Positions 2-17,032 of a DNA stretch of 30,955 bases are shown here, one piece after another. The translations under genes were made by a program, and so were the position numbers. Under the pieces are notes generated by a model, which saw only the letters and a list, made by a program, of their open reading frames with translations, was not told the DNA's origin and ran no database searches. Position 1 is the stretch's first letter; the number at the start of each line of letters is the position of its first letter. Origin of the DNA: Bauldia sp. (GTDB lineage: Bacteria > Pseudomonadota > Alphaproteobacteria > Rhizobiales > Kaistiaceae); assembly GCA_020442095.1 (NCBI GenBank), contig JAGRKY010000430.1, forward strand, positions 1 through 30,955, in the 5' to 3' direction.

Positions 2-727
2 TCGGTCGATCTGGAATCGGCGACCCGTCATGGCATTCCGGTGACGATCGCTTCGGGCGCGAATGCCGAAACCGTGGCCGACCAGGCCCTCGCGTTCATG
101 CTTGCCCTCCTCCGCAAGCTCGTCGTCCACGACCAGGCGGTCCGGTCCGGACGCTGGGAACGGTTCGGCGTGACGACCTCCGAGCTTCCGGGCAAGACGG
201 TCGGACTGATCGGAGCGGGAACGATCGGCCGGGCCGTGACAAGACGGCTTGCCGGTTTCGGCGCATCGGTGGTGTTCTTTGACAGGTACGTCCCGTCTCT
301 GGACGGCGCCCGGAAGATGGAGACCGTCGAGGAACTGCTCGCGACTGCCGACATCGTCTCGTTGCATATGCCGCTGACGCCCGAGACCCGGCACATGATC
401 GATGCCGCCGCGATAAGCCTGATGAAGCCGACGGCCCTGCTCATCAATACGGCGCGCGGGCCGCTCGTCGACCAGGAGGCGCTTTTCGACGCCCTGAGGG
501 CACAGCGCATCGCCGGTGCCGGCCTCGACGTCTTCGAAGACGAGCCGCCGGCGCCGGGTACATTCGACAACGTCCCGAACCTGATCTGTTCGCCGCATAT
601 CGCCGGGGTCAGCGGCGAGTCGATCAGGCGCATGACGATCTCGGCCACATCGAGCCTGCTCGCCGTCCTCGACGGTCAGACGCCGGACACGATCGTCAAT
701 CCCGCGGTGCTCGAGCAGCGTGACTAG
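2..727 (+). CDS. D-isomer-specific 2-hydroxyacid dehydrogenase, 5'-truncated by window edge
   Basis: The reading frame is open from base 2, so the N-terminal part lies outside the window. What remains is the NAD-binding and catalytic core of a D-2-hydroxyacid dehydrogenase (phosphoglycerate/glyoxylate-hydroxypyruvate reductase superfamily). The nucleotide-binding loop reads GLIGAGTIGRAV. The three catalytic positions are visible: Arg in NTARGPLVD, Glu in DVFEDEPP and His in SPHIAG. Such enzymes interconvert 2-oxoacids and D-2-hydroxyacids with NAD(P)H in the cytoplasm. The next gene, an SDR, follows 48 bp downstream on the same strand, so the two are probably co-transcribed. The surrounding genes suggest a sugar-acid or hydroxyacid substrate, but it cannot be read from the sequence. 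A GTG at 41 is in frame but only because it is an internal Val codon; it is not the start. Confidence 0.88.
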   Translation, partial: SVDLESATRHGIPVTIASGANAETVADQALAFMLALLRKLVVHDQAVRSGRWERFGVTTSELPGKTVGLIGAGTIGRAVTRRLAGFGASVVFFDRYVPSLDGARKMETVEELLATADIVSLHMPLTPETRHMIDAAAISLMKPTALLINTARGPLVDQEALFDALRAQRIAGAGLDVFEDEPPAPGTFDNVPNLICSPHIAGVSGESIRRMTISATSSLLAVLDGQTPDTIVNPAVLEQRD

Positions 728-1532: not shown

Positions 1533-2222
1533 CTAGTGGATTTCCTTGGCTTTCTTGAGGGCTTCCCTGAGCTTGGCCGGCGTGAATTCGGGGTCCGCGC
1601 AGATATCGAGGATCACCTTTTCGCGCCGCGCAACGAGGTCCACCGCCTCGGGCAGGCCGGCGACGCAGTCGTCCGGAATCACCACCGCGCCCTGGTAGTC
1701 GGCGTGGATGATGTCGCCGTCCGATACCTGCATTCCACAGATGTCGACCGTGTGGCCGAACTCGACGAGATGAACATGGGCATGGCTGGGGCCCACATGG
1801 CTTCCGAGGATCTGAAATCCATCCGCGAGCAGGTCGACATCCCGGTAGGAGCCGTTGGTCACGCAGCCCTCGGCGCCCAGAGCCTTGTGGACGGCGCTGT
1901 GGACCTCGCCCCAGAACGAACCGACGCCCGGCACATCGTCGACGTCCTCGATGACCACGATCGTCGGGACTTCGCACGCGGCGACGTAGTCGTACCAGTC
2001 CGCCCGGTCCGGCACCTTGCCGCTCGCCGGCTCCGCAGCGCGGATTCTTGCGACGCGAGCCCGGCCGATGATCGGCGGAAGGTCACGCCTGGCGGGCAAC
2101 AGCGGGCGCTTGGTATAGCCGGAACTGCGATATTCCGGTCTCATCACCTCGAGGGCATTGCAGATCGCTGCCGTATCGAAAGCGCGCAGCCGCTCCAGGT
2201 CGGCGCCTGTTATTTCCATCAT
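1533..2222 (-). CDS. RraA-family protein (4-hydroxy-4-methyl-2-oxoglutarate aldolase / oxaloacetate decarboxylase-like)
   Basis: The protein is 229 residues and belongs to the RraA/HMG-aldolase family. The family's metal and pyruvate-enolate site is recognisable: a G-E pair (SFWGEVHSAV), then NGSYRDVDLL, whose R-D-x-x-D supplies the substrate Arg and the metal Asp. Family members cleave 4-hydroxy-2-oxoacids to pyruvate plus another oxoacid, or decarboxylate oxaloacetate, using Mg2+ or Mn2+. The RNase E inhibitor activity of E. coli RraA is unlikely here, because catabolic dehydrogenases and lactonases surround the gene. Translation may start at either of two adjacent ATGs (2222 or 2219); AGAGG upstream is better spaced for the second. 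The gene diverges from the amidohydrolase gene at 2439. Confidence 0.85.
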   Translation of the reverse strand: MMEITGADLERLRAFDTAAICNALEVMRPEYRSSGYTKRPLLPARRDLPPIIGRARVARIRAAEPASGKVPDRADWYDYVAACEVPTIVVIEDVDDVPGVGSFWGEVHSAVHKALGAEGCVTNGSYRDVDLLADGFQILGSHVGPSHAHVHLVEFGHTVDICGMQVSDGDIIHADYQGAVVIPDDCVAGLPEAVDLVARREKVILDICADPEFTPAKLREALKKAKEIH

Positions 2223-3494: not shown

Positions 3495-4433
3495 ATGTCG
3501 GAAACAATCGCCCGCTATCCCGACCCTGCGATCAAGATTCTGCGACCGGGCTTCGAAAAGTACCGGTTGCCGAATGCCGCGATCGAACGTCTCGCGACCG
3601 GCTGCCGGTGGTCCGAGGGACCCGCCTGGTTCGGCGACCAGCGTTGCCTTCTGTGGAGCGACATCCCGAACAACCGCATCCTGCGGTGGGACGAAGGGAC
3701 CGGGACGACAAGCGTCTACCGCTCTCCGTCCCAATACGCCAACGGCAACACACGCGACCGCCAGGGGCGCCTGGTCACGTGCGAACACGGCGCCCGCCGG
3801 GTAACCCGCACCGAGTATGACGGCAGCATCACCGTTCTCATCGACAGCTTCGACGGGAAGCGCCTGAATTCGCCGAATGACCTTGTGGTCAAGAGCGACG
3901 ACTCGATCTGGTTCACCGACCCGCCATTCGGCATTTCCGGCGACTATGAGGGCGACCGGGCAACCCCGGAGCTTCCAAGCAACGTCTACCGCATCGACGG
4001 CCGCACGGGCGCCGCGACCGTGGTTGACAGTGAGATCAAGGGTCCGAACGGTATCGCCTTTTCCCCTGACGAAGCCATTCTCTACGTGGTCGAGGGACGG
4101 ACTGATCCGCGTCGAATCCTCGCCTATGACATCGTCGATGGAACGCGCGTTGCCCGGCGAAGAACCTTCATCGACGCGTCGGACGGCGGAACGCTCGACG
4201 GCTTTCGCGTCGACGAGGACGGGAACCTGTGGTGCGGATGGGGGATGGGCACGCCGGAGCTCGACGGGGTCGTCGTCTTTTCTCCGGAAGGCGAGCGGAT
4301 AGGCCGGATCGAGCTGCCGGAGCGTTGCGCCAACTTGTGCTTCGGAGGTCGCCGGAGGAACCGGCTGTTCATGGCTGCCAGCCAATCCCTCTACGCTCTT
4401 TATGTGAACACACGAGGTTGCCTCGGCGGATAA
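3495..4433 (+). CDS. SMP-30/gluconolactonase/LRE family lactonase
   Basis: This 312-residue six-bladed beta-propeller protein belongs to the SMP-30/gluconolactonase family, which opens sugar lactones with one bound divalent metal. Likely metal ligands are E41 (WSEGPAW), N185 (GPNGIAFS) and D235 (LDGFRVDEDGNLW); N128 in NSPNDL and the WFTDPPFG stretch are also typical. There is no signal peptide, so it acts in the cytoplasm. It sits between the amidohydrolase and uronate dehydrogenase genes. The stop overlaps an ATG (TAATG) at the start of the next coding segment. Uronate dehydrogenase makes aldaro-1,5-lactones, so the natural guess is that this enzyme hydrolyses such a lactone. Which of the two neighbouring lactonases does so cannot be told from sequence. 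Confidence 0.9.
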   Translation: MSETIARYPDPAIKILRPGFEKYRLPNAAIERLATGCRWSEGPAWFGDQRCLLWSDIPNNRILRWDEGTGTTSVYRSPSQYANGNTRDRQGRLVTCEHGARRVTRTEYDGSITVLIDSFDGKRLNSPNDLVVKSDDSIWFTDPPFGISGDYEGDRATPELPSNVYRIDGRTGAATVVDSEIKGPNGIAFSPDEAILYVVEGRTDPRRILAYDIVDGTRVARRRTFIDASDGGTLDGFRVDEDGNLWCGWGMGTPELDGVVVFSPEGERIGRIELPERCANLCFGGRRRNRLFMAASQSLYALYVNTRGCLGG

Positions 4434-4444: not shown

Positions 4445-5227
4445 ATGATCTTCCAGAAAGTCTTACTGACCGGCGCCGCGGGCGGGTTGGGCCGCGTGCT
4501 GCGCCCTGCCCTGCGGAAGGAGCTCGAATTCCTGCGATCGACCGACATCAATCCGATGGATCCGCCCGAAGCCAACGAGGAGACGATCGTCGCGGATCTC
4601 GCCGATCCGACGTCAGCGACCAGACTCGTCGAAGGCATCGAAGCGATCGTCCATTTCGGCGGCATATCGACGGAAGCGGATTTCGAGAGCATCGAGAGGG
4701 TCAACATCGCGGGGATGTACCATCTCTACGAAGCGGCGCGGCTCGCCGGCGTCAAGCGGGTGGTGTTCGCAAGCTCCAACCACGCGATCGGCTTCTATCC
4801 CCAGTCGCAGGTGATCGATACCGCCGTGCCGCAGCGGCCCGACACGTTCTACGGCCTCTCCAAGGCTTTCGGCGAAAACCTCGCGAGCCTCTACTGGGAC
4901 AAGCACGGGATCGAAACGGTGAGCATCCGCATCGGCTCGAGCTTCCCGGAACCCACCGATCGGCGGATGCTGCTGACGTGGCTTTCCTATGGCGATCTCA
5001 TTCAGCTCGTGTCGCGTGCGCTGACCGCGCCGCGCGTCGGCAATCTGGTGGTCTACGGCGTTTCGGACAATGCAGCCACGTTCTGGGACAACCGGCTTGC
5101 CGGCATCCTTGGCTACAAGGCCGCCGACTCCTCCGAAGCGTATCGCGAGAAGGTGTTCGCAAATACCCCGGTGCCGGACAAGGACGAAGCGGCCATGGTC
5201 TATCAGGGCGGCGTGTATACCCTTTAG
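4445..5227 (+). CDS. udh: Uronate dehydrogenase (NAD-dependent epimerase/dehydratase fold)
   Basis: The 260-residue extended-SDR protein closely resembles agrobacterial uronate dehydrogenase along its whole length. Shared features include the TGAAGGLG cofactor loop (9-16), IVHFGGIS (68-75), FASSNHAIGFYPQ (108-120) and the YGLSK catalytic segment with Y136 and K140. RIGSSFPEPTDRRML and the C-terminal FWDN...LGYK segment also match. The known enzyme oxidises D-galacturonate or D-glucuronate at C1 with NAD+, giving aldarolactones. I chose ATG 4445, which is preceded by GAGG at 6-nt spacing, over ATG 4433, which overlaps the upstream stop. It follows the gluconolactonase-type gene directly, consistent with oxidation and lactone opening in one operon. 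It converges on larB. Confidence 0.87.
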   Translation: MIFQKVLLTGAAGGLGRVLRPALRKELEFLRSTDINPMDPPEANEETIVADLADPTSATRLVEGIEAIVHFGGISTEADFESIERVNIAGMYHLYEAARLAGVKRVVFASSNHAIGFYPQSQVIDTAVPQRPDTFYGLSKAFGENLASLYWDKHGIETVSIRIGSSFPEPTDRRMLLTWLSYGDLIQLVSRALTAPRVGNLVVYGVSDNAATFWDNRLAGILGYKAADSSEAYREKVFANTPVPDKDEAAMVYQGGVYTL

Positions 5228-5376
5228 CCGGCCACCGCGTTGCGGCTCCACGCCAATGATCGAGGCTTCGATTCGTCGACGTCGTCCGCCTTCCATCGCC
5301 GCCGTTGAAGGCTGATGCGGCATGGGGCGGATTGGCGACCGGTCAGCGAAGTCCCGTCGGTCTGGAGAGGGAAGTT

Positions 5377-5422
5377 CCTGATTGACCCGGCCGGAGGACG
5401 ACGGCCGGCGTGATCAATCAGG
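5377..5422. terminator. Hairpin between convergent udh and larB
   Basis: A nested inverted repeat lies in the convergent gap. The outer arms are CCTGATTGA (5377-5385) and TCAATCAGG (5414-5422). The inner arms are CCGGCCG (5387-5393) and CGGCCGG (5402-5408). The right outer arm covers the larB stop codon. There is no clear T-tract, so it is a terminator-like structure, possibly serving both directions, rather than a textbook rho-independent terminator. Confidence 0.45.
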
Positions 5423-6074
5423 CGGAAGGTTGGTTCATCAATATCTTGCAGGCCGCCACCGCCGCGCCGAACCCGTTGTCGACATTGACGACGACAACCC
5501 CGGGAGAACAGCTCGAAAGGGCCGCATTCAGCGCCGTTACGCCACCGGTTGCGACCCCGTAGCCCACGGAAGTCGGCACCGCGATAACCGGGGCAGGCAC
5601 CAGCCCGCCAATCACGCTGAACAGCGCGCCTTCCATGCCGGCAACCGCGATGATGACGCGGAAGGAAGCAAGCTCGTCGCGGCGATCGACAAGTCTCCAC
5701 AGACCGGCCACCCCGACGTCGATGATCATCGTCGAATCGTGGCCGGCAAAGGCAAGGGTCCTCTGCGCCTCAAGCGCTACCGGCATATCGGATGTGCCCG
5801 CGGCGACTATCCCTGTGCCGCTTGCGACGAGCGGCGTCGCGCCGCCCAGAATGGCTGTTCGGGAGATCGGATCATAGTCGAGCGCCCGGGAGGTTTCCGA
5901 CACGAGGGCGGCGTGGGTTTCGGTATCGAGCCGCGTCATGAGCAGACGGTGTTCGCGTCCGCTTGCGGCCGCGACGATCGCGTCGATCTGTGCCGGGCTC
6001 TTTCCGGCGCAGAACACCGCCTCGGCGACGCCTGTCCGTGTCGCCCGGCCCCAATCCATCCGGATGTCGGTCAT
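5418..6074 (-). CDS. larB: Nickel pincer cofactor biosynthesis protein LarB
   Basis: This 218-residue protein matches LarB, the pyridinium-3,5-biscarboxylate synthase that carboxylates and adenylate-cleaves nicotinic acid adenine dinucleotide in the first step of nickel-pincer nucleotide synthesis. The C-terminal PurE-like half is clear: IVAAGTSDMPVALEAQRT, VAGMEGALFSVIGGLV and VIAVPTSVGYGVATGGVTAL. It is the last gene of larA-larC-larE-larB, overlapping larE by 4 bp (ATGA), so translation is probably coupled. The protein is a little shorter than many LarBs but keeps the catalytic domain intact. It would be needed only to supply cofactor to LarA. Confidence 0.92.
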   Translation of the reverse strand: MTDIRMDWGRATRTGVAEAVFCAGKSPAQIDAIVAAASGREHRLLMTRLDTETHAALVSETSRALDYDPISRTAILGGATPLVASGTGIVAAGTSDMPVALEAQRTLAFAGHDSTMIIDVGVAGLWRLVDRRDELASFRVIIAVAGMEGALFSVIGGLVPAPVIAVPTSVGYGVATGGVTALNAALSSCSPGVVVVNVDNGFGAAVAACKILMNQPSA

Positions 6075-6862
6075 GGTTGCCGCACGAACATTGCTCCGCG
6101 ACGATAGCTGCGCACGCCCGCGAAATTTCGTCCGGCGTCGCGGCAGAGCGCGCGGACCACGTCGGAGAGATCCTCCCTCTGCCTCATCGCGGCCTCATCC
6201 AGCTCCAGTTCCACGCCGCCGGACGTAATGCGGCAGCGAAGGGTGGCGTTTCGCGGCGCCAGCGAAGAAAGCCTGCCTTCCGCCTTCTCGACAAATGCGA
6301 GGTCGTCGGGGTCGACCGCGATGCCCGTCTCGATCCGGCTCGCGAGGCAGGGCTGCGCCGGAAGCTCGGCAATACCGGAAAGGCCGAGCGAGCGCGCGAG
6401 GGAACGAACGTCGGCCTTTGTCATCTGGGCCTCGACATAGGGATGGACGACATCGTTTTCGGCCGCAGCGATCAGCCCCGGCCGATAGTCCCCGAGGTCG
6501 TCGAGATTGGCGCCGGAGGCGATCGGATCGTCCGTCAGCAGGCGGATACGATGATAGAGATGCGTCTTGCAGAAGTAGCAGCGGTCGACGGGATTATCCC
6601 GGTAGCGCGCATCGTCGAATTCGCCGGCGCCGACGACCTTCAGGTCCCAACCCTCGGTCGCCGCGAGCTCCTGCACGCGCCGTGTCGCGTCCGCCGGGAC
6701 GGCCGGCGAGACGGCATGGATTGCGGTCATCGCGAGCCCTCTCGTCCGGTGAGCGAAGGTTGCGAGGGTCATGCTGTCGACGCCGCCGCTGACCGCGACG
6801 GCCAGCCGACCGAAGCGCGACAGCACCGCGCCGAGCGAGATTGCCTGAGGCTCCGCGCTCAC
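6071..6862 (-). CDS. larE: ATP-dependent sacrificial sulfur transferase LarE
   Basis: The 263-residue PP-loop ATPase carries SGGVDS at residues 25-30. LarE adenylates the dicarboxylated pyridinium mononucleotide and donates sulfur to make the dithiocarboxylate of the nickel-pincer cofactor. C172, in PCLASR, lies where the sacrificial cysteine of Lactobacillus LarE (C176) is expected. That alignment is made by eye. C95 and C98 (CYFC) add a second cysteine pair, but the three-cysteine cluster of the [4Fe-4S]-type LarE enzymes is not evident. Its start overlaps the larC stop and its stop overlaps the larB start, each by 4 bp, so the four lar genes are translated as a tightly coupled set. Confidence 0.92.
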   Translation of the reverse strand: MSAEPQAISLGAVLSRFGRLAVAVSGGVDSMTLATFAHRTRGLAMTAIHAVSPAVPADATRRVQELAATEGWDLKVVGAGEFDDARYRDNPVDRCYFCKTHLYHRIRLLTDDPIASGANLDDLGDYRPGLIAAAENDVVHPYVEAQMTKADVRSLARSLGLSGIAELPAQPCLASRIETGIAVDPDDLAFVEKAEGRLSSLAPRNATLRCRITSGGVELELDEAAMRQREDLSDVVRALCRDAGRNFAGVRSYRRGAMFVRQP

Positions 6863-8037
6863 TGGTCGGTGTCCTCGGTCTGCTGCTTCCAGGCTCGCCG
6901 CGCCGCCAATGTCTCGCCCGTGAGGTCATCGCTTTCCGCTTTCCGGGTTTCCTCCATGCCCGGCCGCCAGACGGACTTGAGGCGGATGCCGCCCACTTCG
7001 CGCAATTCGCGCGCCAGCACGACCCGCGTGTCTTCCCTGACGCGAAGGCCGATCGTCGATGTCTCGGCGAAACAACGGCTGATGGCGGCCTCGGCCGCTT
7101 CGGGCCTTGCGATGACCTGGAATGATTGCATCGGCCGCCCCTTCTTGCCCCAGCGCTCGGCGATCGAAACGTCGATCACGCCCGCCTCGGCGCGAAGCAG
7201 GGTCGCCGCGGCCGCGATCTCCTCTCCTGTCATGTCGTCGATCTCGAAATCGATGACTGCCACGCGATCGCCGGTGGTGGTACGCGTTGGTTCGAACACC
7301 AGCGCCCGAAGGATGTTGGGTATGCCGGGAAGGGTCCGGGTTCCAGCGCCCGTTCCGGCCGAGACGAGCCGCCTGGTCATCCGCGGCTGCTCGCCGACGA
7401 TGAGATGCTTGAGGATTGCGGCGCCTGTTGGCGTGACGCGCTCCCCCTCGACGCCGTCGTCGCGCCAGACGAAGCCTTCAAGGATCAGGGTGGTGGCCGG
7501 TGCGGGCACCGGCAGCAATCCATGCGCGGTCTTGACCACACCACCGCCCTGCGGCAGGGCGGAGACGGACCAATGGGCACCGTGGAGCGCTGCCGCAATG
7601 CTGCCGGCGGCGACCACGTCAAGCAGCGAGTCCCAGTCGGCGAGCTCGTGGAAATGGACATGATCGACTGGCACGCCGTGTATCTTCGCTTCGGCCTCTG
7701 CGAGGATCGTCAGGATGGCGATCGCCTCGGGTGCTGTTCCATTCTCCAGCATTGCACCTTCGATACGGCGGACGAGAGCCGGGAAGCCGGTGTCGTCCGG
7801 CGCATGTCGGGGAGGATCGCGGCGCTGCGGCTCGGCGAGACCGAACCGCAGGGTCCTGAGGGAGCCGATTGTTGTCTCCTCGATCAACGGTTGCCCCAAG
7901 CCTCGGGGCAGGACCTTCGCCGTGTCGGCCATCACCCGCGGCGCGAGTCCAGGCATGGCATCGAGCATCGCCGCCACGAACATGTCGCCGGCGATCCCGC
8001 CCACGGCATCGAGATGGATCGTCGTCACGTCACTCAC
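6859..8037 (-). CDS. larC: Nickel insertion protein LarC, single unsplit frame
   Basis: The 392-residue protein begins with the family signature IHLDAVGGIAGDMFVAAMLDA and continues through HVHFHELADWDSLLDVV, a His/Asp-rich segment typical of LarC. The C-terminal nickel-binding half (IDDMTGEEIAAAATLL, ERWGKKGRPM) is present in the same frame. LarC uses CTP to insert nickel into the pincer nucleotide. In Lactobacillus plantarum it is made as larC1/larC2 by programmed frameshifting, whereas here it is one continuous gene. It overlaps larA upstream and larE downstream by 4 bp each. Confidence 0.93.
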   Translation of the reverse strand: MSDVTTIHLDAVGGIAGDMFVAAMLDAMPGLAPRVMADTAKVLPRGLGQPLIEETTIGSLRTLRFGLAEPQRRDPPRHAPDDTGFPALVRRIEGAMLENGTAPEAIAILTILAEAEAKIHGVPVDHVHFHELADWDSLLDVVAAGSIAAALHGAHWSVSALPQGGGVVKTAHGLLPVPAPATTLILEGFVWRDDGVEGERVTPTGAAILKHLIVGEQPRMTRRLVSAGTGAGTRTLPGIPNILRALVFEPTRTTTGDRVAVIDFEIDDMTGEEIAAAATLLRAEAGVIDVSIAERWGKKGRPMQSFQVIARPEAAEAAISRCFAETSTIGLRVREDTRVVLARELREVGGIRLKSVWRPGMEETRKAESDDLTGETLAARRAWKQQTEDTDQ

Positions 8038-9329
8038 GGACGATAGACCGGAATGACGTAAGGCCCTTCCGGAATCACCGCGACAGCCGCATCGCCATGG
8101 CGTGCAACGCTTGCCGCGATGGCCTGCTCAACCGAGGGGATGATTTCCACGGCCGTTATTCGCTGCTCCTCGGCGTCGAGGCCGCGCGTATAGAGCTGGA
8201 CGCGGCCGACGCGCATCGGCTTCAACTGCATCTCGGTCTGCCACTCGTCAATCTCGGCCAGGGACTTTGCGGTCAGCGTCGCGAGGAATCGTTCGGCACC
8301 GAGAGCGACAAGACGTTCCTGTGCCTCGCGGAACTCCCTTGAGCCGAAGCCCTCGGAGCACTCCGACACGACAATCAGCGTCCCGCCCGGCTCGAGGATG
8401 TCGATCGGCGTCACCATGCCCTTCACGGTCTGGTAGTAGGTCTTGTCGAGCGGATAGCCCGCGGAGGAAGTGACCACGGTCCTGAACTTCCGCGGCACGC
8501 CAACCTGGGTCGATTCGGCAACAAAGGCGACGGCAGCGAGATGGCTCGCGATGATTTCGCCGAAGGTCACGCAAACCAGATCGCGCTCTTCGTCGATCAC
8601 CGTATTCAAGGCATAGATTTCGCCGATCTTCCGGACGATCTGGAGCTGCTCCTCGTGAAGCGGATTGCCGACAAGGTTGCACTGGACGGCGAGCGGATCC
8701 TCCATGAAACGCGCCGAGTGGAAAGTCCGAATGGTCTCATGCCCGGCGACGCCGGGGGCCACGACCTTGCGGCCGCCGGACCAGCCGGCCATGAAATGCG
8801 GTTCGACCAGACCGGTCGCGATCCTGAGGTCCGCTTCGACGAAGCGCCGGTTGATCTTGACCGGTGTCCCGCGCGTCTCCGTGGGTCCGAGGTCGACCTG
8901 TTCAGCTTCATTCCGCGCGAAGTGGTTCTCCACCCGGACATTGTCGAGGACCCACGAGTCGCCGACCAGTTCGGCAAGCTCCGCGCCCTCGTTTGGACGG
9001 TGAAGCCCGGTGGCAACGAGCACCGTGATTCGGTCGCGCGGAATGCCCCCGGCAATCATGGTTTCGATCATCTGGCGGAGGAAAAGGCCGTTCGGGACCG
9101 GACGGGTAATGTCACAGATCAGGATGCAGGCACTTCTCTTCCCCCGAACGAGCTCGTAGAGGGGGGGCGAGTCGATTGGCCGTTCGAATGCATCCCGGAT
9201 CGCTGCGCGGCCGTCAGCAAGCTTCGGGAGCGCCAATTTGCGGATGACCGTCGGTTCGACGCCCGGTGGCAGGGAGACGACGAGGCCCGATCGGCCAAAG
9301 GCAATGTCAATTTTCTTCGAGTTCGGCAT
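8034..9329 (-). CDS. larA: Nickel-pincer-dependent 2-hydroxyacid racemase/epimerase (LarA family)
   Basis: The 431-residue protein has every catalytic landmark of LarA. K188 in SGGRKVVAPGVA corresponds to the lysine that binds the cofactor covalently. H204 (RTFHS) sits 16 residues later, like the nickel ligand H200 of the Lactobacillus enzyme. H110 (ATGLHRP) and H178 (VEPHFMAGW, ten before the Lys) match the acid/base pair. The substrate-contact segment DITRPVP is also present. LarA removes and returns a hydride at the alpha carbon. The superfamily covers lactate, malate and other hydroxyacid racemases and gluconate epimerases. No lactate permease or lactate dehydrogenase is nearby, while uronate and sugar-acid genes are, so a sugar-acid epimerase is more likely (inference). 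It heads the lar genes; no strong ribosome-binding site precedes the ATG. Confidence 0.9.
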   Translation of the reverse strand: MPNSKKIDIAFGRSGLVVSLPPGVEPTVIRKLALPKLADGRAAIRDAFERPIDSPPLYELVRGKRSACILICDITRPVPNGLFLRQMIETMIAGGIPRDRITVLVATGLHRPNEGAELAELVGDSWVLDNVRVENHFARNEAEQVDLGPTETRGTPVKINRRFVEADLRIATGLVEPHFMAGWSGGRKVVAPGVAGHETIRTFHSARFMEDPLAVQCNLVGNPLHEEQLQIVRKIGEIYALNTVIDEERDLVCVTFGEIIASHLAAVAFVAESTQVGVPRKFRTVVTSSAGYPLDKTYYQTVKGMVTPIDILEPGGTLIVVSECSEGFGSREFREAQERLVALGAERFLATLTAKSLAEIDEWQTEMQLKPMRVGRVQLYTRGLDAEEQRITAVEIIPSVEQAIAASVARHGDAAVAVIPEGPYVIPVYRP

Positions 9330-9557
9330 TGCACCGAAGTCTAGGCCGATCGCTCATTCTGCAAAAGGCGGAAAGATGCCCTCACCCTCTGCAATCGCCT
9401 GCCGCGCTTTGGATACGGCAGTCGAGTGCAGCGTCTTCCTTCCCCGCCCGCTCCCGCCGGCGAGGCGACGGCTGCACGCCGCCGCGAGCCGCCACGGGAA
9501 TTCCGACATCACCGACCCATCGGATGCCGCGGTGCCGAGTGTAGCGGCGAAAAGGCG

Positions 9558-10469
9558 TCAGTCGCCCTTCGGCATCTGCTCTTTCAGCTCCTTCGCCATC
9601 ATCAGCATGATGCTCGAATAGTCGTGCTTGGCATAACCCGCGTCGCAGTGAAGGGCGTAGAGATTGCAGGCAATCTCTCCAAGGGTCGCCAGCGTGCGCG
9701 ACTCGCTCGCCAGCTCGACGGCGAGGCGCATGTCCTTGAGCTGGAACTCCGTACGGAACCCGCCGGTGTAGCCGCGCGAGGACGGGACGGTATCCATCAC
9801 ACCCGGATAGGGATTGAGCTGCTGAAGCGCGAAATTGGTGCCGGAACTTGTGCGCATGATGTCGGAGAGGATCTTCGGATCGAGGCCGTTGGCGACCCCG
9901 AGCGCCAGAGCCTCGACGCATCCGATCATGCAGATGCCTGACAGCATGTTGTTGCAGATCTTGGCTGTCTGTCCGGCCCCGTTGGTGCCCGCATGAACGA
10001 TGTTGCGCCCCATCGCCTCGAGCAGCGGACGGACCAGCTCAAGATCCTCGGCGTCGCCGCCGACCATGAAAGTCAGCGTGCCGGCTTCCGCGCCATGCGT
10101 GCCGCCGGAGACCGGCGTGTCCAGCATCTTGCCGCCGCGCTTCTTCACCTCCACCGCGAGATCGCGGGTGACGGAGATCGAGATTGTGCTGCTGTCCATG
10201 AACACCGTGCCGGGCGCGACGTTGTCCAGGAGGGCCGCCTCGCCGAGATAGACGTCGCGGACATGCTCGCTGGTCGGAAGCATGGTCATCACGACCTCCG
10301 CTCCCTTGGCCGCTTCGACCGCTGAAGAAGCCGCCTTGCCGCCATGCTGGACAAGGTAGTCGACCGCCTCGGACGAGAGGTCGAACCCGGTCACTTCATG
10401 GCCGGCATTCAGCATATTGCGACCCATCGGCTTTCCCATGTTGCCGACGCCAATAAGGGCAACCCGCAT
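9558..10469 (-). CDS. 3-hydroxyisobutyrate dehydrogenase-family NAD(P)-dependent oxidoreductase
   Basis: The 303-residue beta-hydroxyacid dehydrogenase has the Rossmann start VALIGVGNMGKPMGRNM (GxGxxG at 7-12). It also has the substrate loop DTPVSGGTHGAEAGT (about 117-131) and the catalytic Lys at K170 in GAGQTAKICNNM. The family includes 3-hydroxyisobutyrate dehydrogenase (MmsB) and tartronate semialdehyde reductase (GarR/GlxR). The PYPGVMDTVPSSRGYTGGF segment resembles MmsB, but the context favours a sugar-acid breakdown product such as tartronate semialdehyde. It lies 30 bp after the aldehyde dehydrogenase gene on the same strand, with a strong GGGAGGAA ribosome-binding site, so the two form an operon. 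The lar genes start 228 bp further on and may be read from the same transcript. Confidence 0.88.
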   Translation of the reverse strand: MRVALIGVGNMGKPMGRNMLNAGHEVTGFDLSSEAVDYLVQHGGKAASSAVEAAKGAEVVMTMLPTSEHVRDVYLGEAALLDNVAPGTVFMDSSTISISVTRDLAVEVKKRGGKMLDTPVSGGTHGAEAGTLTFMVGGDAEDLELVRPLLEAMGRNIVHAGTNGAGQTAKICNNMLSGICMIGCVEALALGVANGLDPKILSDIMRTSSGTNFALQQLNPYPGVMDTVPSSRGYTGGFRTEFQLKDMRLAVELASESRTLATLGEIACNLYALHCDAGYAKHDYSSIMLMMAKELKEQMPKGD

Positions 10470-10499
10470 GTCCGTATTCCTCCCTCGGTATTGTTGTTC

Positions 10500-12056
10500 T
10501 CACACGCCCGGCGTGCCGGAATTGATGATGACGGTCTTCGGCCAGGTGAAATACGCCACCATGCTCTCGAGCGAGAGCTCGCGGCCCATCCCGCTGATCT
10601 TGGTGCCGCCGTATTCGATGCTGGCCTCGGCGACCGAGAACTGGTTGACCTGGACGAAGCCGGCCTCGACCCGATCGACGAATTCCATCGCGCGGGCCAG
10701 ATCGCGCGTCCACAGCACGGCGGCGAGGCCGTAGCGGGAGTTGTTGGCCTCCGCCAGCACGGCGTCGAAATCGCGAAACGGTGCGACGGTGGCAACCGGG
10801 CCGAATATCTCGTCGCGACAGACCGGCGAGTCGGCGGCGATCCCCTCGATCAGGGTCGGCTGGTAGAAATGGCCGCGGCTGAGCGCCGGATCCTGCGAAC
10901 GTGCCCCGCCGACGGCGATCCGCGCGCCGGGGGTGTTGCGCGCCATGTCGACGTAGCGCTCGATCCTTGCCATCTGCTCGGCGGAGATCACCGAACCGAC
11001 CTCGGTCGAATCGTCGAGAGGGTTGCCCATCCTGCCCTTGTTCATGGCAGCGATCACCCGCTCCAGCGTTTCGCTGTAAACGTCCTCGTGGATGTAGATC
11101 CGGGTGCCGGCGGTGCAGGACTGGCCCTGCCGGAAGAGCCTGAGGCCCTGGATGATGCCCGCGACGGCAAGGTCGAGATCGGCATCGGGCATGACGATGT
11201 TGGGATTCTTGCCACCGAGTTCGGCGGTCACGGTGATGAACTTGTCCGCCGCGTAATGCATGATCTGGGCACCGACGGCGCTCGATCCGGTGAAGGAGAT
11301 TTTCCGGATCAGCGGGTGCTCGCAAAGCGGCTTGCCCGCCTCCTCGCCGAATCCTGAAATCAGGTTGGCGACACCCGGCGGCAGCACCTCCTGGATCAGC
11401 TCGAAGACCCGCAGGACAGCCAGCGGCGCCTGCTCCGCCGTCTTGAGCACGACCGTGTTGCCGGCCGCGAGCGCAGGCCCGATCTTGCAGGCCGACTGCA
11501 TCAACGGCGCATTCCACGGAATGATCGCGCCCACCACGCCGACCGGCACGCGTTTCGTGTAAAGGAACTTGCCCGGCGCCCACGGCGTCGTCTTGCCCTG
11601 CACCTCGCTGGCCAGGCCGGCGAAATAGCGCAGGATGTCGATCATCGTCTTCGCTTCGCCGCGCGTCTGCGTCGCCAAGGCATTGCCGGTCTCCAGGGAC
11701 GACAATTGGGCGAGGCTCTCGACCTCGGCCTCGAGGCGTTGGGCCATCTCCAGCATCAACGCGCTGCGCTGGCGCGTCGGGATCGCCGCCCAGGCCGGGA
11801 ATGCTTTCTGCGCCGACTGGACCGCCCGCTCGACATCGGCCTCGCGACAGCGCGGCGCCGATCCGATGACCTCGCCGTTTGCCGGATTCTCGACGGAAAA
11901 TGATTCTCCGGACAGTGCCTCGCTCAGGCGGCCGTCGACGACGACGCGATCGGACAGCCTTGCGGCCGTCGCCTTGGCGGTCCGTTCCCGTTCCATGGCC
12001 GTGGAGGTCGCCGGCTCAACCTCGCTTGCCTTCCCCGCGGTCGCAGGACCTGCCAT
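10500..12056 (-). CDS. NAD(P)-dependent aldehyde dehydrogenase
   Basis: This is a 518-residue ALDH-superfamily enzyme. The catalytic set is complete: N182 (IIPWNAPL), E279 (TAELGGKNP), nucleophile C314 (GQSCTAG) and Glu in DEIFGPV. The Rossmann Gly motif ISFTGSSAVG is at about 253-262. It resembles betaine-aldehyde, succinate-semialdehyde and sugar-aldehyde dehydrogenases; the exact aldehyde is not evident. The first roughly 35 residues are an Ala/Thr/Glu-rich tail not seen in most relatives, so an internal start is possible. However, the ATG at 12056 has a good AGGGAGG site 7-8 nt upstream. It diverges from the pdxA2-type gene and heads the (-) operon that continues into the 3-hydroxyisobutyrate-type dehydrogenase and possibly the lar genes. 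Confidence 0.9.
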   Translation of the reverse strand: MAGPATAGKASEVEPATSTAMERERTAKATAARLSDRVVVDGRLSEALSGESFSVENPANGEVIGSAPRCREADVERAVQSAQKAFPAWAAIPTRQRSALMLEMAQRLEAEVESLAQLSSLETGNALATQTRGEAKTMIDILRYFAGLASEVQGKTTPWAPGKFLYTKRVPVGVVGAIIPWNAPLMQSACKIGPALAAGNTVVLKTAEQAPLAVLRVFELIQEVLPPGVANLISGFGEEAGKPLCEHPLIRKISFTGSSAVGAQIMHYAADKFITVTAELGGKNPNIVMPDADLDLAVAGIIQGLRLFRQGQSCTAGTRIYIHEDVYSETLERVIAAMNKGRMGNPLDDSTEVGSVISAEQMARIERYVDMARNTPGARIAVGGARSQDPALSRGHFYQPTLIEGIAADSPVCRDEIFGPVATVAPFRDFDAVLAEANNSRYGLAAVLWTRDLARAMEFVDRVEAGFVQVNQFSVAEASIEYGGTKISGMGRELSLESMVAYFTWPKTVIINSGTPGV

Positions 12057-12162
12057 CGATCATCCTCCCTTTGGGCAGCTTCGTTGCGCGGACCATTCCG
12101 GAGGAGGCGGCCGGCGGATGGTACCACCGACGAATTCCGAAAAATGGCTGCATCTGAAGCTT

Positions 12163-12196
12163 TGCATTCGTATGCATATGCGATAACCTTGGTTAT
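12163..12196. promoter_or_regulatory. Palindromes in the ALDH / pdxA2 divergent promoter region
   Basis: In the 204-bp gap between diverging genes lie TGCAT-TCGT-ATGCA (12163-12176), the overlapping palindrome GCATATGC, and ATAACC-TT-GGTTAT (12183-12196). They form an AT-richer island in GC-rich DNA and are plausible operators, perhaps for the LacI regulator at 13282-14295. I could not pick a secure -35/-10 pair for either direction. Confidence 0.4.
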
Positions 12197-12260
12197 GTGA
12201 TGAGTCAATAGCGACCGCGGCATGGACCGCCGTCGATGCATGGGAGGCTAAGCGACCGAC

Positions 12261-13262
12261 ATGGCACCAACCCGCATTGGGCTCGTCCTCGGTGACCCCG
12301 CAGGAGTTGGGCCGGAGATCGCGGCCAAGCTCCTGAAACGGAACTGGGACCGGGACGATCTTCGTTTCATTGTTATCGGCACGGAGGCCGTGCTGGCGGG
12401 CGGCGCCAGGGTGGCCGGTATCGACCTCGACCTGGAGACGATCCGGCAAGGCGCGCCGATCCCGCAGAACACGCGGGAGCCGCTGCTGATGACGATCGAC
12501 GAAACCGATCTCGACGATATCCCCGAAGGCAAGGCCTCACGTGCCGCCGGTCTCTTCGCGCTGCGCAGCCTGCAGGCGGCGGTCGAAGCCGCGAAGGCCA
12601 GGCAGATCGACGCGATCGTCTATGCGCCGCTGAACAAGCACGCGATGAGCCTCGCCGGCTTCGACGAGATCGACGAGATGCACTATCTCGCCCGCCTCTT
12701 CGAGTGCCGCCACTTCTGCAGCGAGCTGAATGTCCTCGACAAGCTGTGGACGGTGCGGGCGACATCGCATGTCCCGCTTGGCGAGGTTGCGGGAAAGCTC
12801 ACAACGGATCTGATCATCGACGCGACCCGGCTTGGCGTCTCGACGATGGCCCGCGCCGGCCTGTCGAATCCGCGCGTCGCGGTGGCCGGCCTGAATCCGC
12901 ACGCGGGAGACGGCGGTACGATCGGCCAGGAGGACATCGACATCATCCAGCCAGCCGTCGAAGCGCTCAAGCGCGAGGGCATGAACATCCGAGGACCGAT
13001 ATCGCCCGACACGGTGATGATGGTCGCGTATCGCGGCGCCTTTGATCTGGTCGTGACGATGTACCACGACCAGGGGCAAATAGCGCTCAAGGCCCTTGGC
13101 TTCGAGCGCGTGGTGACGATGCTCGGTGGGCTCCCGGTGCCGGCGATCACCGCCTCGTCGGGAAGCGCCTACGACATCACCGGCCAGAACCTGGCGAGCC
13201 CCGACGGAATGCTGTCCGCCTGCGAGCTCGCCCGGCGGTTGACCGAACCCGTCCTGGTCTGA
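12261..13262 (+). CDS. pdxA2: PdxA2-type 4-phospho-threonate/erythronate dehydrogenase family protein
   Basis: The 333-residue protein belongs to the PdxA family of metal-dependent, NAD-linked beta-decarboxylating dehydrogenases. All three metal-ligand histidines are visible: H170 (ATSHVPLG), H214 (GLNPHAGDGG) and H269 (YHDQGQIALK). GDPAGVGPE near the N-terminus is also typical. Vitamin B6 PdxA is unlikely here. PdxA2 proteins in catabolic clusters oxidise and decarboxylate 4-phospho-D-threonate or erythronate. Their usual partner, a DUF1537 kinase, is not in the window. The C-terminal family motif DHGTA is replaced by SSGSA (about 299-303), so the substrate may differ. The gene diverges from the aldehyde dehydrogenase and converges on a LacI regulator 19 bp away. 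A GGGAGG lies a long 13-14 nt before the ATG. Confidence 0.82.
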   Translation: MAPTRIGLVLGDPAGVGPEIAAKLLKRNWDRDDLRFIVIGTEAVLAGGARVAGIDLDLETIRQGAPIPQNTREPLLMTIDETDLDDIPEGKASRAAGLFALRSLQAAVEAAKARQIDAIVYAPLNKHAMSLAGFDEIDEMHYLARLFECRHFCSELNVLDKLWTVRATSHVPLGEVAGKLTTDLIIDATRLGVSTMARAGLSNPRVAVAGLNPHAGDGGTIGQEDIDIIQPAVEALKREGMNIRGPISPDTVMMVAYRGAFDLVVTMYHDQGQIALKALGFERVVTMLGGLPVPAITASSGSAYDITGQNLASPDGMLSACELARRLTEPVLV

Positions 13263-13281
13263 CGGCCGCGCAGCGTCCGCG

Positions 13282-14295
13282 TCACGCCGACCCGGCCGGG
13301 CCAACCCGCGCGGACGATCGGATGACCAGTTCGCCCGGCACCCGGATCGACACCGGCGCCGCATCCGGCCTGTCCATCTGGTCGATAAGAATGGCGATGG
13401 CCTCGGCGGTCATCGTCTCTACAGGCTGGCGCACCGTCGTCAGGTCGTAGCTCGGCCAGGCCGCCGCGGCTATGTCGTCGAAGCCGACGATCGAAACGTC
13501 GCCCGGGACGTTGAGCGAGAGGTCGCGTCGCGCCGCATCGAGCGCGCCGAGCGCCATGATGTCGCTGATGCAGAACAGCGCATCCGGCCGGTCGGGACCC
13601 GAGAGAAGCACCTTGGCGGCGGCGTAGCCGCCTTCATAGGTGTTTCCCCCCGGCTCCTCCCGGAGTTCGGTGATCCCGTGGCGGCGAAGCTCCTCGACAA
13701 AGGCGCGCCGCCGTTCGATGTGGGTCGACGTGGTGGCAAAGCCGCCGATCAGGCCGAAGCGCCGATGCCCGCCCTCCACCAGGGTTCGCGCCACGAGGCG
13801 GCCAGCCTCCTCGTTCGCGCAGGATACCGAGTTCACCGCATCTCCGTAGACGGTGCGGTTGAACAGCACCAAAGGCGTACTGCCACTCGCAAAGGCCTCC
13901 GCCGCCCGGGACGAGAGGGTGGCCGAGGTGATCACCACCCCGGCGACCTGATACTGCATGAGCTGCGGGACGATCTCGTCGACGTCCTGGCCGGGCGGAA
14001 GGCTGAACAGCATCACCCGGCGTCCGATCTTCTGGAGGCTCTGGGTGAAGGCGTGGAGGACGGCCGGATAGAAGGGGTTGAGGATGTCGCCCATCACCAA
14101 GCCGATGACGTTCGACTTCCGTGAAATCAGTGAGCGCGCGAGCTCGTTCGGCCGATAGCCGAGTTCGGCCGCAATGGAGTGGATCCGCTCCAGCGTCTCC
14201 TGGGAAACCACGTCCGGTCGGCTGAAGGCCCGGGATACGGTCGGCTGCGAGACGCCGGCGGCGCGTGCCACTTCGTTTGAAGTTATCTTCTTCAT
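13282..14295 (-). CDS. LacI-family transcriptional regulator
   Basis: With the start at 14295 the protein has 337 residues, the normal LacI length. The N-terminal helix-turn-helix reads SNEVARAAGVSQPTVSRAF (residues 5-23) and the hinge region ELGYRPNELARSLISRKS. The periplasmic-binding-protein-like ligand domain follows (NVIGLVMGDILNPFYP, SIVGFDDIAAAAWPSYDLTTVRQP). An upstream in-frame extension of 49 residues is Arg-rich and unlike the family, so I rejected it. It lies 190 bp downstream of the ABC importer genes on the same strand and converges on pdxA2. Likely targets are the pdxA2/ALDH divergent promoter or its own unit; this is inference. Confidence 0.9.
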   Translation of the reverse strand: MKKITSNEVARAAGVSQPTVSRAFSRPDVVSQETLERIHSIAAELGYRPNELARSLISRKSNVIGLVMGDILNPFYPAVLHAFTQSLQKIGRRVMLFSLPPGQDVDEIVPQLMQYQVAGVVITSATLSSRAAEAFASGSTPLVLFNRTVYGDAVNSVSCANEEAGRLVARTLVEGGHRRFGLIGGFATTSTHIERRRAFVEELRRHGITELREEPGGNTYEGGYAAAKVLLSGPDRPDALFCISDIMALGALDAARRDLSLNVPGDVSIVGFDDIAAAAWPSYDLTTVRQPVETMTAEAIAILIDQMDRPDAAPVSIRVPGELVIRSSARVGPAGSA

Positions 14296-14485: not shown

Positions 14486-17032
14486 CTAGGCCCGGGGCCG
14501 GCGGGCCTGGGAATAGACAGCGACAGCGCCAAGCGTGATGCCGCCGATGAACCAGTATTGCCAGGCGCCCGACAGACTGAGGAAAGTGGTCGTCGAGTTG
14601 ATGACCTGGATCAGGACAGCTCCGAACAGGACACCAATGAAAGCGCCCCGGCCACCGAACAGGCTCGCCCCGCCGAGTACGACGGCCGCGATACTGCTGA
14701 GCGTATAGGTGACGCCCTGGTTGGCGTCTCCGATGCCGAGCTGGGCCATGACCATGATGCCACCGAGAGCGGTGAGAACGGAACAGGCCACAAACGCACC
14801 GACGATGACCCAGCCCGTTGCGACGCCGATGCGAGAGGCCGCCACTTCGTCCGATCCGACGCCGCGCAGGCTCAGACCCCAGCGGGTGTGGCGCAGCGCG
14901 ATCTCGAGGCCGATACCGAGGAGCAGGGCGACGACGAAAGCGATGGGGACGCCGCCGATCTCGTACTGGATGAAGTCGATCACATCAGTCCTGATCGGGC
15001 CGCCCGGCGTCGGCCGCAGCAGGACCGAGAATCCCTGAAGGATGATGAAGATGCCAAGCGTCGCGGCGACCGACGTGAAATTTCCGAAGCGTATCAGCGA
15101 ACCATTGACGAAGCCGACCAGAGCGCCGGCGCCGATCATGGCGACAAGCCCCATGATCATCGTGAAGGCGACGCTGCCGTCCGAGAAGAAGAAAGAAGAT
15201 ATGACGACGACCAGGCCGACGAGCGGGCCGACCGACACATCGATGCCGCCGGTGAAAATGGCGCAGGCCTGCCCGTATCCGATAAACGCAAGAGCGGCCG
15301 CCAGCAGCAGCATCTTCTCGATATTGAAGGCCGAGACGAAACGAATGTTGTGATCCGTCGCGTAGGCGCCGAGAGCGAGGATGAGGATCGCAAGGACGAC
15401 GCTCGGCGCATAGTCGCCGGCCGCGAACTGCCGCAGGCGCCAGCCCCAGCCCCTCCGCTGGTCGACGCCAGCCGTCCGTCCGCTTCCGTCCTGCTCCTTG
15501 CGGTGTGTCGTGGCCGTGATCATCTTGCGGCCAATCTGTTCCTCGGTGACGTCGTCGCCGGTCAGCTCGCCAACGTTGTGGCCACGCGAGAAGACGATGA
15601 CCCGATCGCAAAGCCCCTCGAGCTCCTGCGTGTCCGACGAGACGATGATGACCGGCGTGCCGGCGTTGGCGATCTCGCGAAGGATCGAATAGATCTCGGC
15701 GCGCGCGCCGACGTCGACGCCGGCCGTCGGCTCTTCCGCCAGCACCAGCGATGGATTCGCCAGCAGGGCGCGTGCCAGGATCACCTTCTGCTGGTTGCCG
15801 CCCGACAGACTGCCGACATTCGCATCGATCGAAGCCGTACGGATGGCGAGGTTCTTGCGCTGCTGTTCGACGGCTGCGCGCTCGACCGACCCGCGAACCA
15901 CCCCGAACTGGGCGAAGCGCGGCAGGGCGGCCAGCGCCGCGTTCTCGCGCACCGACATCCGCATCAGGAGGCCCTCGGTCTGACGTTCCGAGGACAGGAA
16001 GATGACGCCGGCCTTGTAGGCCGATTCCGGATTGCCGAGCCGCAGGGCATTGCCGCCCAGCGAGACCTCGCCGGAGGCGTTGATGAGACCGGCAAGCGAT
16101 CGCAGGAATTCGCTCTGGCCGTTTCCGACGATACCGGCGATGCCGACAATCTCGCCGCCGCCGGCGACCATGCTGACATCGTGGAAATTGCGTCCCGACA
16201 GGTTCTTGACGACGAGCTCGCCGTCCTTGCGCGCGCCGCCACCCTTCTCGGGATACACGCTGGTCACCGAGCGCCCGACGATGAGACGCAGCATCTCGTC
16301 GTCGGACATGTCTTCGGCCAGGGCGGATCCCTGGACCTCGCCGTCGCGCATGACCGTCACCCGGTTCGCGATCTGGCGGACCTCCTGAAGGCGATGCGAA
16401 ATGTAGATGATCGCCGCGCCACGCCGCGCGGCCTCGCGAATCTTCTCGAACAGCAGGTCGACGAGATCGGCGGTCAGCGGTGCCGTCGGCTCGTCGAGAA
16501 TCAGAACCTTCGGCTCGATCGCGAGAGCCTTGGCCAGTTCGATGAGCTGGCGCTGCGCCACCCCGACGTCGGTCATCCTCGTCTTGGGATGGATGGCGCA
16601 GCCGACCCGCTCGAGCTGGCTCGCGACCCACTCCATCATGGTCTGGTTGCCCCGGCGCAAATGGGCGGGCACGGCGAGCGCCATGTTTTCAGCGACGGTG
16701 AGGTCGGGCAGGACCGCCGGGTGCTGGTGGACGATGGCCAGGCCGTGGCGCTGTGCCTGCGCCGCCGAAAGCCGGCCAATCGCTTCGCCGCCGATTTCAA
16801 CGGTCCCGGTATCGGGACGCACGTCACCCGATGCGATGCCCATCAATGTCGATTTGCCCGCGCCGTTCTCGCCAAGCAGCGCGTGAACCTCACCTGCGAT
16901 CGCAGTGAAGGATACGCCGTTGACAGCGACCACGCCGCCATAGCGCTTCGAGACATGTTTCAGCTGAAGCCCGGCGGCGCCGATTGCAGGGGCTTCTGCC
17001 AATTCGGGGCTCCGCTCTTTCACCGACACCAT
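14486..17032 (-). CDS. Fused sugar ABC transporter: tandem ATPase (RbsA-like) plus permease (RbsC-like)
   Basis: This 848-residue protein joins what are normally two genes. Residues about 22-505 are an RbsA/MglA-type double ATPase. NBD1 has a canonical Walker A (GENGAGKST, 54-62) and Walker B (VLILDE, 176-181). NBD2 has the usual degenerate Walker A of the family (GIVGNGQSE), a canonical signature LSGGNQQ (409-415) and an unusual Walker B, LVLAEE (429-434), where Asp is Glu. After a charged linker (about 506-540), residues about 541-848 form an RbsC-type permease with FTGGIDVSVGPLVGL and VVLGGASLFGGRGAFIGVLFGA. It is the third gene of the importer operon, after the separate permease and the binding protein, so the complex would hold two different permease chains. 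An imperfect hairpin separates it from the binding-protein gene. Confidence 0.9.
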   Translation of the reverse strand: MVSVKERSPELAEAPAIGAAGLQLKHVSKRYGGVVAVNGVSFTAIAGEVHALLGENGAGKSTLMGIASGDVRPDTGTVEIGGEAIGRLSAAQAQRHGLAIVHQHPAVLPDLTVAENMALAVPAHLRRGNQTMMEWVASQLERVGCAIHPKTRMTDVGVAQRQLIELAKALAIEPKVLILDEPTAPLTADLVDLLFEKIREAARRGAAIIYISHRLQEVRQIANRVTVMRDGEVQGSALAEDMSDDEMLRLIVGRSVTSVYPEKGGGARKDGELVVKNLSGRNFHDVSMVAGGGEIVGIAGIVGNGQSEFLRSLAGLINASGEVSLGGNALRLGNPESAYKAGVIFLSSERQTEGLLMRMSVRENAALAALPRFAQFGVVRGSVERAAVEQQRKNLAIRTASIDANVGSLSGGNQQKVILARALLANPSLVLAEEPTAGVDVGARAEIYSILREIANAGTPVIIVSSDTQELEGLCDRVIVFSRGHNVGELTGDDVTEEQIGRKMITATTHRKEQDGSGRTAGVDQRRGWGWRLRQFAAGDYAPSVVLAILILALGAYATDHNIRFVSAFNIEKMLLLAAALAFIGYGQACAIFTGGIDVSVGPLVGLVVVISSFFFSDGSVAFTMIMGLVAMIGAGALVGFVNGSLIRFGNFTSVAATLGIFIILQGFSVLLRPTPGGPIRTDVIDFIQYEIGGVPIAFVVALLLGIGLEIALRHTRWGLSLRGVGSDEVAASRIGVATGWVIVGAFVACSVLTALGGIMVMAQLGIGDANQGVTYTLSSIAAVVLGGASLFGGRGAFIGVLFGAVLIQVINSTTTFLSLSGAWQYWFIGGITLGAVAVYSQARRPRA

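Follow-up and report, generated by a model that had tools for sequence, protein, structure and literature searches.

The closest described relatives of the enzyme reported here are LarAIp of the planctomycete Isosphaera pallida (also LarAH2 or SAR; PDB entry 9eia) and LarALp of Lactiplantibacillus plantarum (also LarA1; PDB entries 5huq and 6c1w), both members of the LarA superfamily of racemases and epimerases, which depend on a nickel-pincer nucleotide (NPN). For four specificity positions, the text of PMC11770544 gives the usual residues as F, F, W and E or Q in lactate racemases (LAR), E, V, A and H in D-gluconate 2-epimerases (GntE) and Y, F, H or Q and T in 2-hydroxyglutarate racemases (HGR), with H or Q and K at the last two positions in malate racemases (MAR). 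The published text describes LarAIp as most active on lactate and 2-hydroxybutyrate, followed by L-glycerate and others. LarAH43 of Enterocloster asparagiformis has its highest listed efficiency on glycerate, a preference which, the authors of PMC11770544 write, could be explained by a glutamine at the last specificity position. Here, we describe a larA, larC, larE and larB gene set in a 30,955-nucleotide stretch of DNA from Bauldia sp. (contig JAGRKY010000430.1), called the window below; all coordinates are positions in this window, the left edge of which cuts the leftmost gene. Judging from its sequence, the set probably encodes an NPN-dependent racemase together with all the proteins that make its cofactor; its substrate would be a three-carbon 2-hydroxy acid, with glycerate as the likeliest and lactate as the next.

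The four genes are located on the minus strand in the order larA-larC-larE-larB. All frames are intact and each of the three junctions (larA/larC, larC/larE and larE/larB) is an overlap of exactly 4 bp, as an earlier, sequence-only reading of the window had described. The larA gene (8034..9329) encodes a predicted NPN racemase of 431 amino acids with Lar_N and LarA_C domains (PF09861, E=3.1e-54; PF21113, E=4.4e-17). It is followed by larC (6859..8037), one unsplit frame for a nickel insertion cyclometallase of 392 amino acids, which matches TIGR00299 (160.7 bits, cut-off 90), NF052512 (89.8 bits, cut-off 50) and PF01969 (E=2.6e-79). The sulfur insertase gene larE (6071..6862) encodes 263 amino acids matching TIGR00268 (250.7 bits, cut-off 150), and larB (5418..6074) matches NF033503 (249.6 bits, cut-off 175), so that LarB, LarE and LarC each score above curated NCBIfam cut-offs. 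LarE contains an SGGVDS loop at residue 25 and the cysteines C95, C98 and C172 in a CXXC-C arrangement, which the text of PMC9283937 ties to a [4Fe-4S] cluster and not to a sacrificial cysteine. The presence of this loop and motif suggests a LarE of the [4Fe-4S] type, not a sacrificial one. With LarB, LarC and LarE encoded beside a LarA that has both domains, two catalytic histidines, a tether lysine, a nickel histidine and a phosphate arginine, the window is predicted to hold a complete, self-sufficient nickel-pincer system.

Alignment to LarALp and LarAIp identifies the LarA residues for phosphate binding (R76), acid/base catalysis (H110 and H178), cofactor tethering (K188), nickel coordination (H204) and holding of the substrate (Y299, Q300 and K303). 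The four catalytic residues H110, H178, K188 and H204 had been named correctly from the sequence alone; the other four had not been listed. A LarA-like enzyme with a single catalytic histidine was considered and rejected, as both histidines are found. By alignment, the four specificity positions are occupied by F179, M180, W363 and Q364, compared with L, M, W and Q in LarAIp and Y, K, H and K in the malate racemase MAR2. This F-M-W-Q pocket lies between the F, F, W, E/Q signature of LAR and the L, M, W, Q of SAR. F179, W363 and Q364 are invariant in all 81 sequences compared (the window LarA and 80 relatives) and M180 is present in 80 of them. Twenty further loci were aligned for the pocket; two duplicated earlier ones, and the remaining 18, down to 49% identity, have F-M-W-Q in 17 cases and F-F-W-Q in one. 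The pocket, the shape of which was derived from the alignment to LarAIp, appears to be small and of the lactate or short-chain type, suggesting a fit for a CH2OH or CH3 side chain. A D-gluconate 2-epimerase of the GntE type was rejected (F, M, W, Q and not E, V, A, H; 26.8 bits on the hexonate epimerase model, with a cut-off of 500), and so were a malate racemase (W and Q at the last two positions; 287.8 and 253.6 bits on two models with cut-offs of 500 or 462) and a 2-hydroxyglutarate racemase (F, M, W, Q versus Y, F, H/Q, T).

The similarity of the whole protein agrees with that of the pocket. Six NCBIfam models of LarA proteins matched, the best being the lactate racemase model NF033504 (343.8 bits), followed by the two malate racemase models, LarAH10 (232 bits), LarAH14/15/16 (68 bits) and the hexonate epimerase. 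Among solved structures, the window LarA scores 343.9 bits with LarAIp, 185 with LarALp, 164 with the malate racemase and 31.2 with the gluconate epimerase of PDB entry 4nar; aligned identities are 42.5% with LarAIp, 29.4% with LarALp and 27.7% with MAR2. In a tree of 113 rows, the whole LarA group joins LarAIp (SH-aLRT support 99), separate from a set of three LAR-type rows (98) and from another of MAR2 with three companions (99). The window LarA is therefore placed among the LAR/SAR short-chain racemases, beside LarAIp and on the lactate-racemase side of MAR2, in a quick tree with SH-aLRT support alone and long reference branches that leave exact depths unsure. GntE, HGR and HHR rows are outside this tree and were judged by NCBIfam scores and published residue signatures. 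The sequence-only reading had held that LarA epimerises the alpha carbon of an aldonate or aldarate. With GntE outside the tree, the placement comes close to contradicting this, and the comparison of active sites, which gives a short-chain or lactate pocket and not the E-V-A-H of the gluconate epimerases, runs against it as well. Two titles among the relatives look doubtful: in the tree, the LarA of L052, a locus labelled Mycobacterium sp. KBS0706, clusters closely with that of Inquilinus limosus, and L078, a metagenome-assembled genome labelled Bordetella parapertussis, carries a larA of this group.

Gene neighbourhoods were compared in 120 relative loci (numbered with the prefix L): the 80 closest relatives, 18 loci from a class sample, 15 from order samples and seven plasmids. 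The class sample gave 23 matches, one of them already included and two not taken, and two of the 20 taken were duplicates; the order samples gave 35 matches, 12 of them already included, and eight of the 23 taken were duplicates. Duplicates were detected by shared 60-mers. Seven plasmid loci at 60–80% identity were counted from 17 matches, the ten below 60% being left out. Neighbours up to 10 kb from larA were counted from tblastn matches above set bit scores; 82 of the 120 loci have at least 8 kb of sequence on both sides, and the flanks of the remaining loci are shorter. At E<=1e-80, 23 of the 385 genomes sampled from the class of genome G001 have larA; at E<=1e-140, it is present in 10 of 397, 7 of 82 and 18 of 395 genomes sampled from three orders. 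These samples include genomes known beforehand to have larA. The loci led to 27 genomes, each with a single close LarA and two with an additional remote Lar_N match; LarB is found above its cut-off exactly once in each of the 27, although in G001 and G023 larB and larA are on different contigs. Rhizobium sp. BK376 carries two larA genes (L054 and L058) and is the single such strain among the 80 closest loci. Near larA, larB is found in 80 loci, larC in 86, larE in 82 and all three in 79; at least one is missing in the other 41 (for example L001, L002 and L040), some of which are on short contigs.

A glycerate kinase gene is located near larA in 14 of the 120 loci, seven of the glxK type and seven of the gckA type, and on the same strand in nine of the 14. 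In five loci (L021, L044, L069, L155 and L157) the kinase immediately follows larB. The clearest arrangement is that of plasmid RHOApc of Rhodovastum atsumiense (L155), where a sigma-54 regulator, a gene of the 2-keto-3-deoxygluconate permease family (KdgT), larA, larC, larE, larB and glycerate kinase follow each other; several transposase genes border them on one side, and on the opposite side the linear record ends. This block, described from the annotated genes of an incomplete PLSDB gene table, could be mobile. A KdgT-type permease is found near larA in nine of the 120 loci. Tartronate semialdehyde reductase is encoded at L029 (487.4 bits, NCBIfam cut-off 397) and, with 89% and 47% identity to the L029 protein, at L036 and L073. 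In Rhizobium ruizarguesonis, the larACEB-kinase block is located beside genes for a lactonase, an SDR, a beta-keto-acid cleavage protein, a CoA transferase and a thiolase, and this neighbourhood resembles the deoxyribonate pathway, which ends in glycerate and glycerate kinase according to the text of PMC6365646.

Among the 27 genomes with a close LarA, a glycerate kinase of the MOFRL type is present in 25 and one of the PF02595 type in four. Of the 38 glycerate kinase genes in these genomes, three are within 10 kb of larA, where 0.115 would be expected (Poisson P 2.3e-4), while none of 90 genes for lactate permeases or FMN-dependent oxidases is (expected 0.28; Fisher P 0.025), the oxidases being FMN_dh matches above about 190 bits, from a mixed family. 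On the tree, the glxK label requires two changes and the gckA label six, which suggests several origins for the pairing of larA with a glycerate kinase; the tree was built before L186 was found. The gckA-type genes are related to three characterised glycerate kinases. These kinases prefer D-glycerate, with 13–34% activity on L-glycerate, and that of T. tenax proved specific for glycerate in trials that included gluconate, galactonate, lactate and others, according to the text of PMC2063504. A racemase next to a kinase that prefers D-glycerate would most simply convert L-glycerate to D-glycerate.

The activity, substrate, direction and role in Bauldia sp. proposed in this paragraph are predictions that build on the gene content, residues, kinship and neighbours described above. 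LarB, LarE and LarC would convert nicotinic acid adenine dinucleotide to the nickel-pincer nucleotide, which LarA would hold with K188 as the tether, H204 as the nickel ligand and R76 at the phosphate. LarA would then invert C2 of its substrate by proton-coupled hydride transfer between substrate and cofactor, H110 and H178 forming the acid/base pair. The likeliest physiological reaction would be that of L-glycerate to D-glycerate, which glycerate kinase would phosphorylate to 2-phosphoglycerate; the next likeliest would be the interconversion of L-lactate and D-lactate. In both cases, the sugar acid itself would not be the substrate of LarA, which would act on the short acid left when a sugar-acid pathway ends. 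That its substrate is a three-carbon acid of either kind is, in our judgement, likely; that glycerate is its main substrate, a proposal which overlaps with the former, has close to an even chance. A wider proposal is put forward tentatively, as somewhat short of an even chance: the F-M-W-Q LarA proteins, found mainly in Alphaproteobacteria, would form a subfamily of dedicated glycerate racemases, which together with a KdgT-type permease and glycerate kinase would provide a nickel-dependent entry of L-glycerate into glycolysis, and the window enzyme would be a member attached to a uronate and sugar-acid gene island. LarA adds a member to a known kind of enzyme; what would be novel is the glycerate-racemase operon. 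No statement of such an operon was found in the literature searched, largely main texts outside subscription journals, and Table S1 of PMC7583248, on COG context, may already list glycerate kinase for one of its groups.

Several observations weigh against glycerate. LarAIp, by its published text, works better on lactate and 2-hydroxybutyrate than on glycerate and is less active on substrates with polar side chains. The window LarA is under the equivalog cut-off of NF033504 (343.8 versus 460 bits). No glycerate kinase is present among the 27 called genes of the window, all of which were scanned, nor within 10 kb of larA in 106 of the 120 loci, including 70 of the 82 that have 8 kb or more on either side. 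Once the closest hits and the plasmids are set aside, 33 loci remain, and just two of them have the kinase; six of the seven glxK rows form one clade. The neighbour families were picked after the cluster annotations had been seen, so the counts and tests are not blind. Finally, an FAH-family hydrolase gene, a GlcD-like oxidase gene or both are located near larA in 22 of the 120 loci, mostly rhizobial, a context that points to lactate.

In this second context, FAH hydrolase genes are found in 16 loci and GlcD-like oxidase genes in 19, with both in 13. In two annotated rhizobial loci (L156 and L158), a branched-chain-type ABC importer is followed by larA, while a GntR regulator and an NAD(P)-dependent oxidoreductase resembling 3-hydroxyisobutyrate dehydrogenase precede larC-larE-larB; further along, both have an SDR and a GlcD-like oxidase, and L158 additionally has an FAH-family hydrolase together with amidohydrolase, mandelate-racemase-family and aldo/keto-reductase genes. 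Hydrolases of the 2,4-didehydro-3-deoxy-L-rhamnonate type yield pyruvate and L-lactate. The one FAH protein tested, the L030 homologue of that of L158, scores 425.7 bits on the model for 2,4-didehydro-3-deoxy-L-rhamnonate hydrolase, below the cut-off of 500. These neighbourhoods point to lactate as the LarA substrate in those strains. LarA may thus be a lactate racemase in a non-phosphorylated 6-deoxyhexose pathway, in which the hydrolase would release pyruvate and L-lactate, LarA would convert L-lactate to D-lactate and the GlcD-like flavoprotein would oxidise the latter. Lactate being among the preferred substrates of LarAIp, according to the published text, fits this explanation. However, neither an FAH-family hydrolase nor a GlcD-like oxidase was matched in the Pfam and NCBIfam scans of the called window genes, no lactate permease or FMN-oxidase-family gene is near larA in the 27 genomes, and the glycerate kinase in 14 loci is left unexplained; for the window enzyme, we regard the lactate pathway as unlikely, if still a serious competitor. 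Common to the kinase and the FAH/GlcD contexts is that the candidate substrate is a three-carbon hydroxy acid from the end of sugar-acid breakdown.

Racemisation of glycerate also has to be weighed against epimerisation of a tetronate. A PdxA-family dehydrogenase gene (12261..13262, plus strand; PF04166, E=8e-81) starts about 2.9 kb upstream of larA, and LarA might interconvert threonate and erythronate for a pathway of the PdxA/DUF1537 type. The PdxA-family protein is under the cut-off of all seven NCBIfam models it matched. Three loci from the sample of the order of G001 (L179, L180 and L181) have larA without larB, larC or larE nearby and PdxA-family and aldehyde dehydrogenase matches beside it. 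In L180, the only annotated one, a PfkB kinase gene comes after larA, and genes for a DUF1537-type kinase (PF07005/PF17042) and PdxA run divergently from larA; the neighbourhood of these three loci is possibly a tetronate context. LARs weakly epimerise 4-deoxythreonate, according to the published text. Yet no DUF1537 kinase was matched in the window, the PdxA proteins of the three loci are just 33–35% identical to that of the window, in all three, as in the window, PdxA and larA point away from each other, and the pocket is small, which makes a tetronate substrate very unlikely. Least probable of all is C2 epimerisation of an aldarate or a C5-C6 aldonate that the adjacent uronate dehydrogenase (udh) and lactonase would supply: udh, lactonase and sugar importers are all in the window, the superfamily contains gluconate epimerases and published text proposes uronic or aldaric substrates for the LarAH19 group, but the pocket is F-M-W-Q, the hexonate and 4nar scores (26.8 and 31.2 bits) fall far below those of lactate racemase and LarAIp (343.8 and 343.9 bits), LarA is placed beside LarAIp, and udh is near larA in none of the 120 relative loci.

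The broader idea of the sequence-only reading, a dedicated nickel-dependent step in sugar-acid catabolism, survives in part. A complete and self-sufficient system does have sugar-acid genes as neighbours and could plausibly act in the last stage of sugar-acid catabolism, while the aldonate or aldarate substrate is not retained; glycerate is formally the smallest sugar acid, and only in that reduced sense does the sugar-acid idea stand. The udh cluster would be incidental or an indirect source of the three-carbon acid.

The surroundings of the lar genes were taken from 27 genes called by a codon-usage script (none shorter than 80 amino acids), each of them searched with Pfam or NCBIfam models. 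Against plasmid records, the DNA of positions 5000-13300 gave matches of 60–80% identity in three, each covering less than most of that stretch. A gene of the 3-hydroxyisobutyrate dehydrogenase (HIBADH) family (9558..10469, minus strand; TIGR01692, 366.5 bits, cut-off 291.6; PDB entry 3obb, 318 bits) lies upstream of larA, separated from it by 228 bp; a scan of positions 9250-9700 found no promoter- or terminator-like sites. It is preceded by an aldehyde dehydrogenase gene (10500..12056, minus strand; PF00171, E=4.4e-155), which reaches no NCBIfam cut-off among the best 25 of 43 matches and from which the PdxA-family gene is divergent. On the other side, udh (4445..5227, plus strand; PDB entry 3rft, 272 bits) is convergent with larB, and an SMP-30/gluconolactonase-like lactonase (3495..4433, plus strand; PF08450, E=3.6e-56) and an amidohydrolase also lie to the left, on the strand opposite to the lar genes. 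On its right, the lar region is flanked by sugar-type ABC genes and LacI regulators, another amidohydrolase and another HIBADH-family gene, as well as SDRs and a histidinol-dehydrogenase-like gene. The udh, lactonase, aldehyde dehydrogenase and sugar importers noticed from the sequence alone are thus real. Also as noticed, the 27 genes include no match to a lactate permease, an aquaporin-type larD or a Crp/Fnr-type larR. The accompanying statement that lactate dehydrogenase is absent is a little too strong, as a D-isomer-specific 2-hydroxyacid dehydrogenase, of a family that includes D-lactate dehydrogenases, is cut by the left end of the window (41-727).

Some other genes have unusual features. 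An 848-residue frame (14486-17032, minus strand) fuses a BPD_transp_2 permease domain to two ABC ATPase domains; separate genes usually encode ATPase and permease in ribose-type importers. The product of 27772-29499 (plus strand) combines a LuxR-type DNA-binding domain with the periplasmic-binding-protein fold Peripla_BP_6 and is possibly a one-piece ligand-sensing regulator. An RraA-like aldolase gene (1533-2222, minus strand) is overlapped by a plus-strand frame (1536-2402) that has no Pfam match and is probably spurious. The histidinol-dehydrogenase-like gene (23047-24369, plus strand) is about 80% identical to one in L059 (2527-3855), from an uncultured Acetobacteraceae metagenome-assembled genome, where it is located about 7 kb from larA and followed by DUF1177, AroM and peptidase S51 genes; such a gene is near larA in one of the 120 loci.

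If the glycerate proposal is correct, the permease-racemase-kinase operon has a concrete physiological role, the rescue of L-glycerate by a nickel enzyme, and would offer a route for L-configured three-carbon products of sugar-acid catabolism. The automatic name "nickel-dependent lactate racemase" carried by four annotated plasmid relatives would then also need correction. When the system is compared with those described, the GntE gluconate 2-epimerases (LarAH19/20; PDB entry 4nar is GntE2) share the NPN superfamily and the sugar-acid context with the window, but differ in their usual pocket (E-V-A-H versus F-M-W-Q) and score only 31.2 bits with its LarA. LarALp shares the mechanistic residues and the F and W of the pocket, with F and T where the window LarA has M and Q and an identity of 29.4%. 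Its operon also contains larB, larC and larE, although larC is annotated in two pieces there and is single in the window, the L. plantarum LarE is sacrificial where that of the window has the CXXC-C motif, and larD and larR have no match in the window. LarAH43, known from the text of its description, belongs to the lactate-racemase group and has Q at the last specificity position, as does the window LarA. The best solved match is LarAIp (42.5% identity), which has all eight cofactor and substrate-carboxylate residues of the window LarA and shares M, W and Q at three of the four specificity positions, the first being L in LarAIp and F in the window enzyme.

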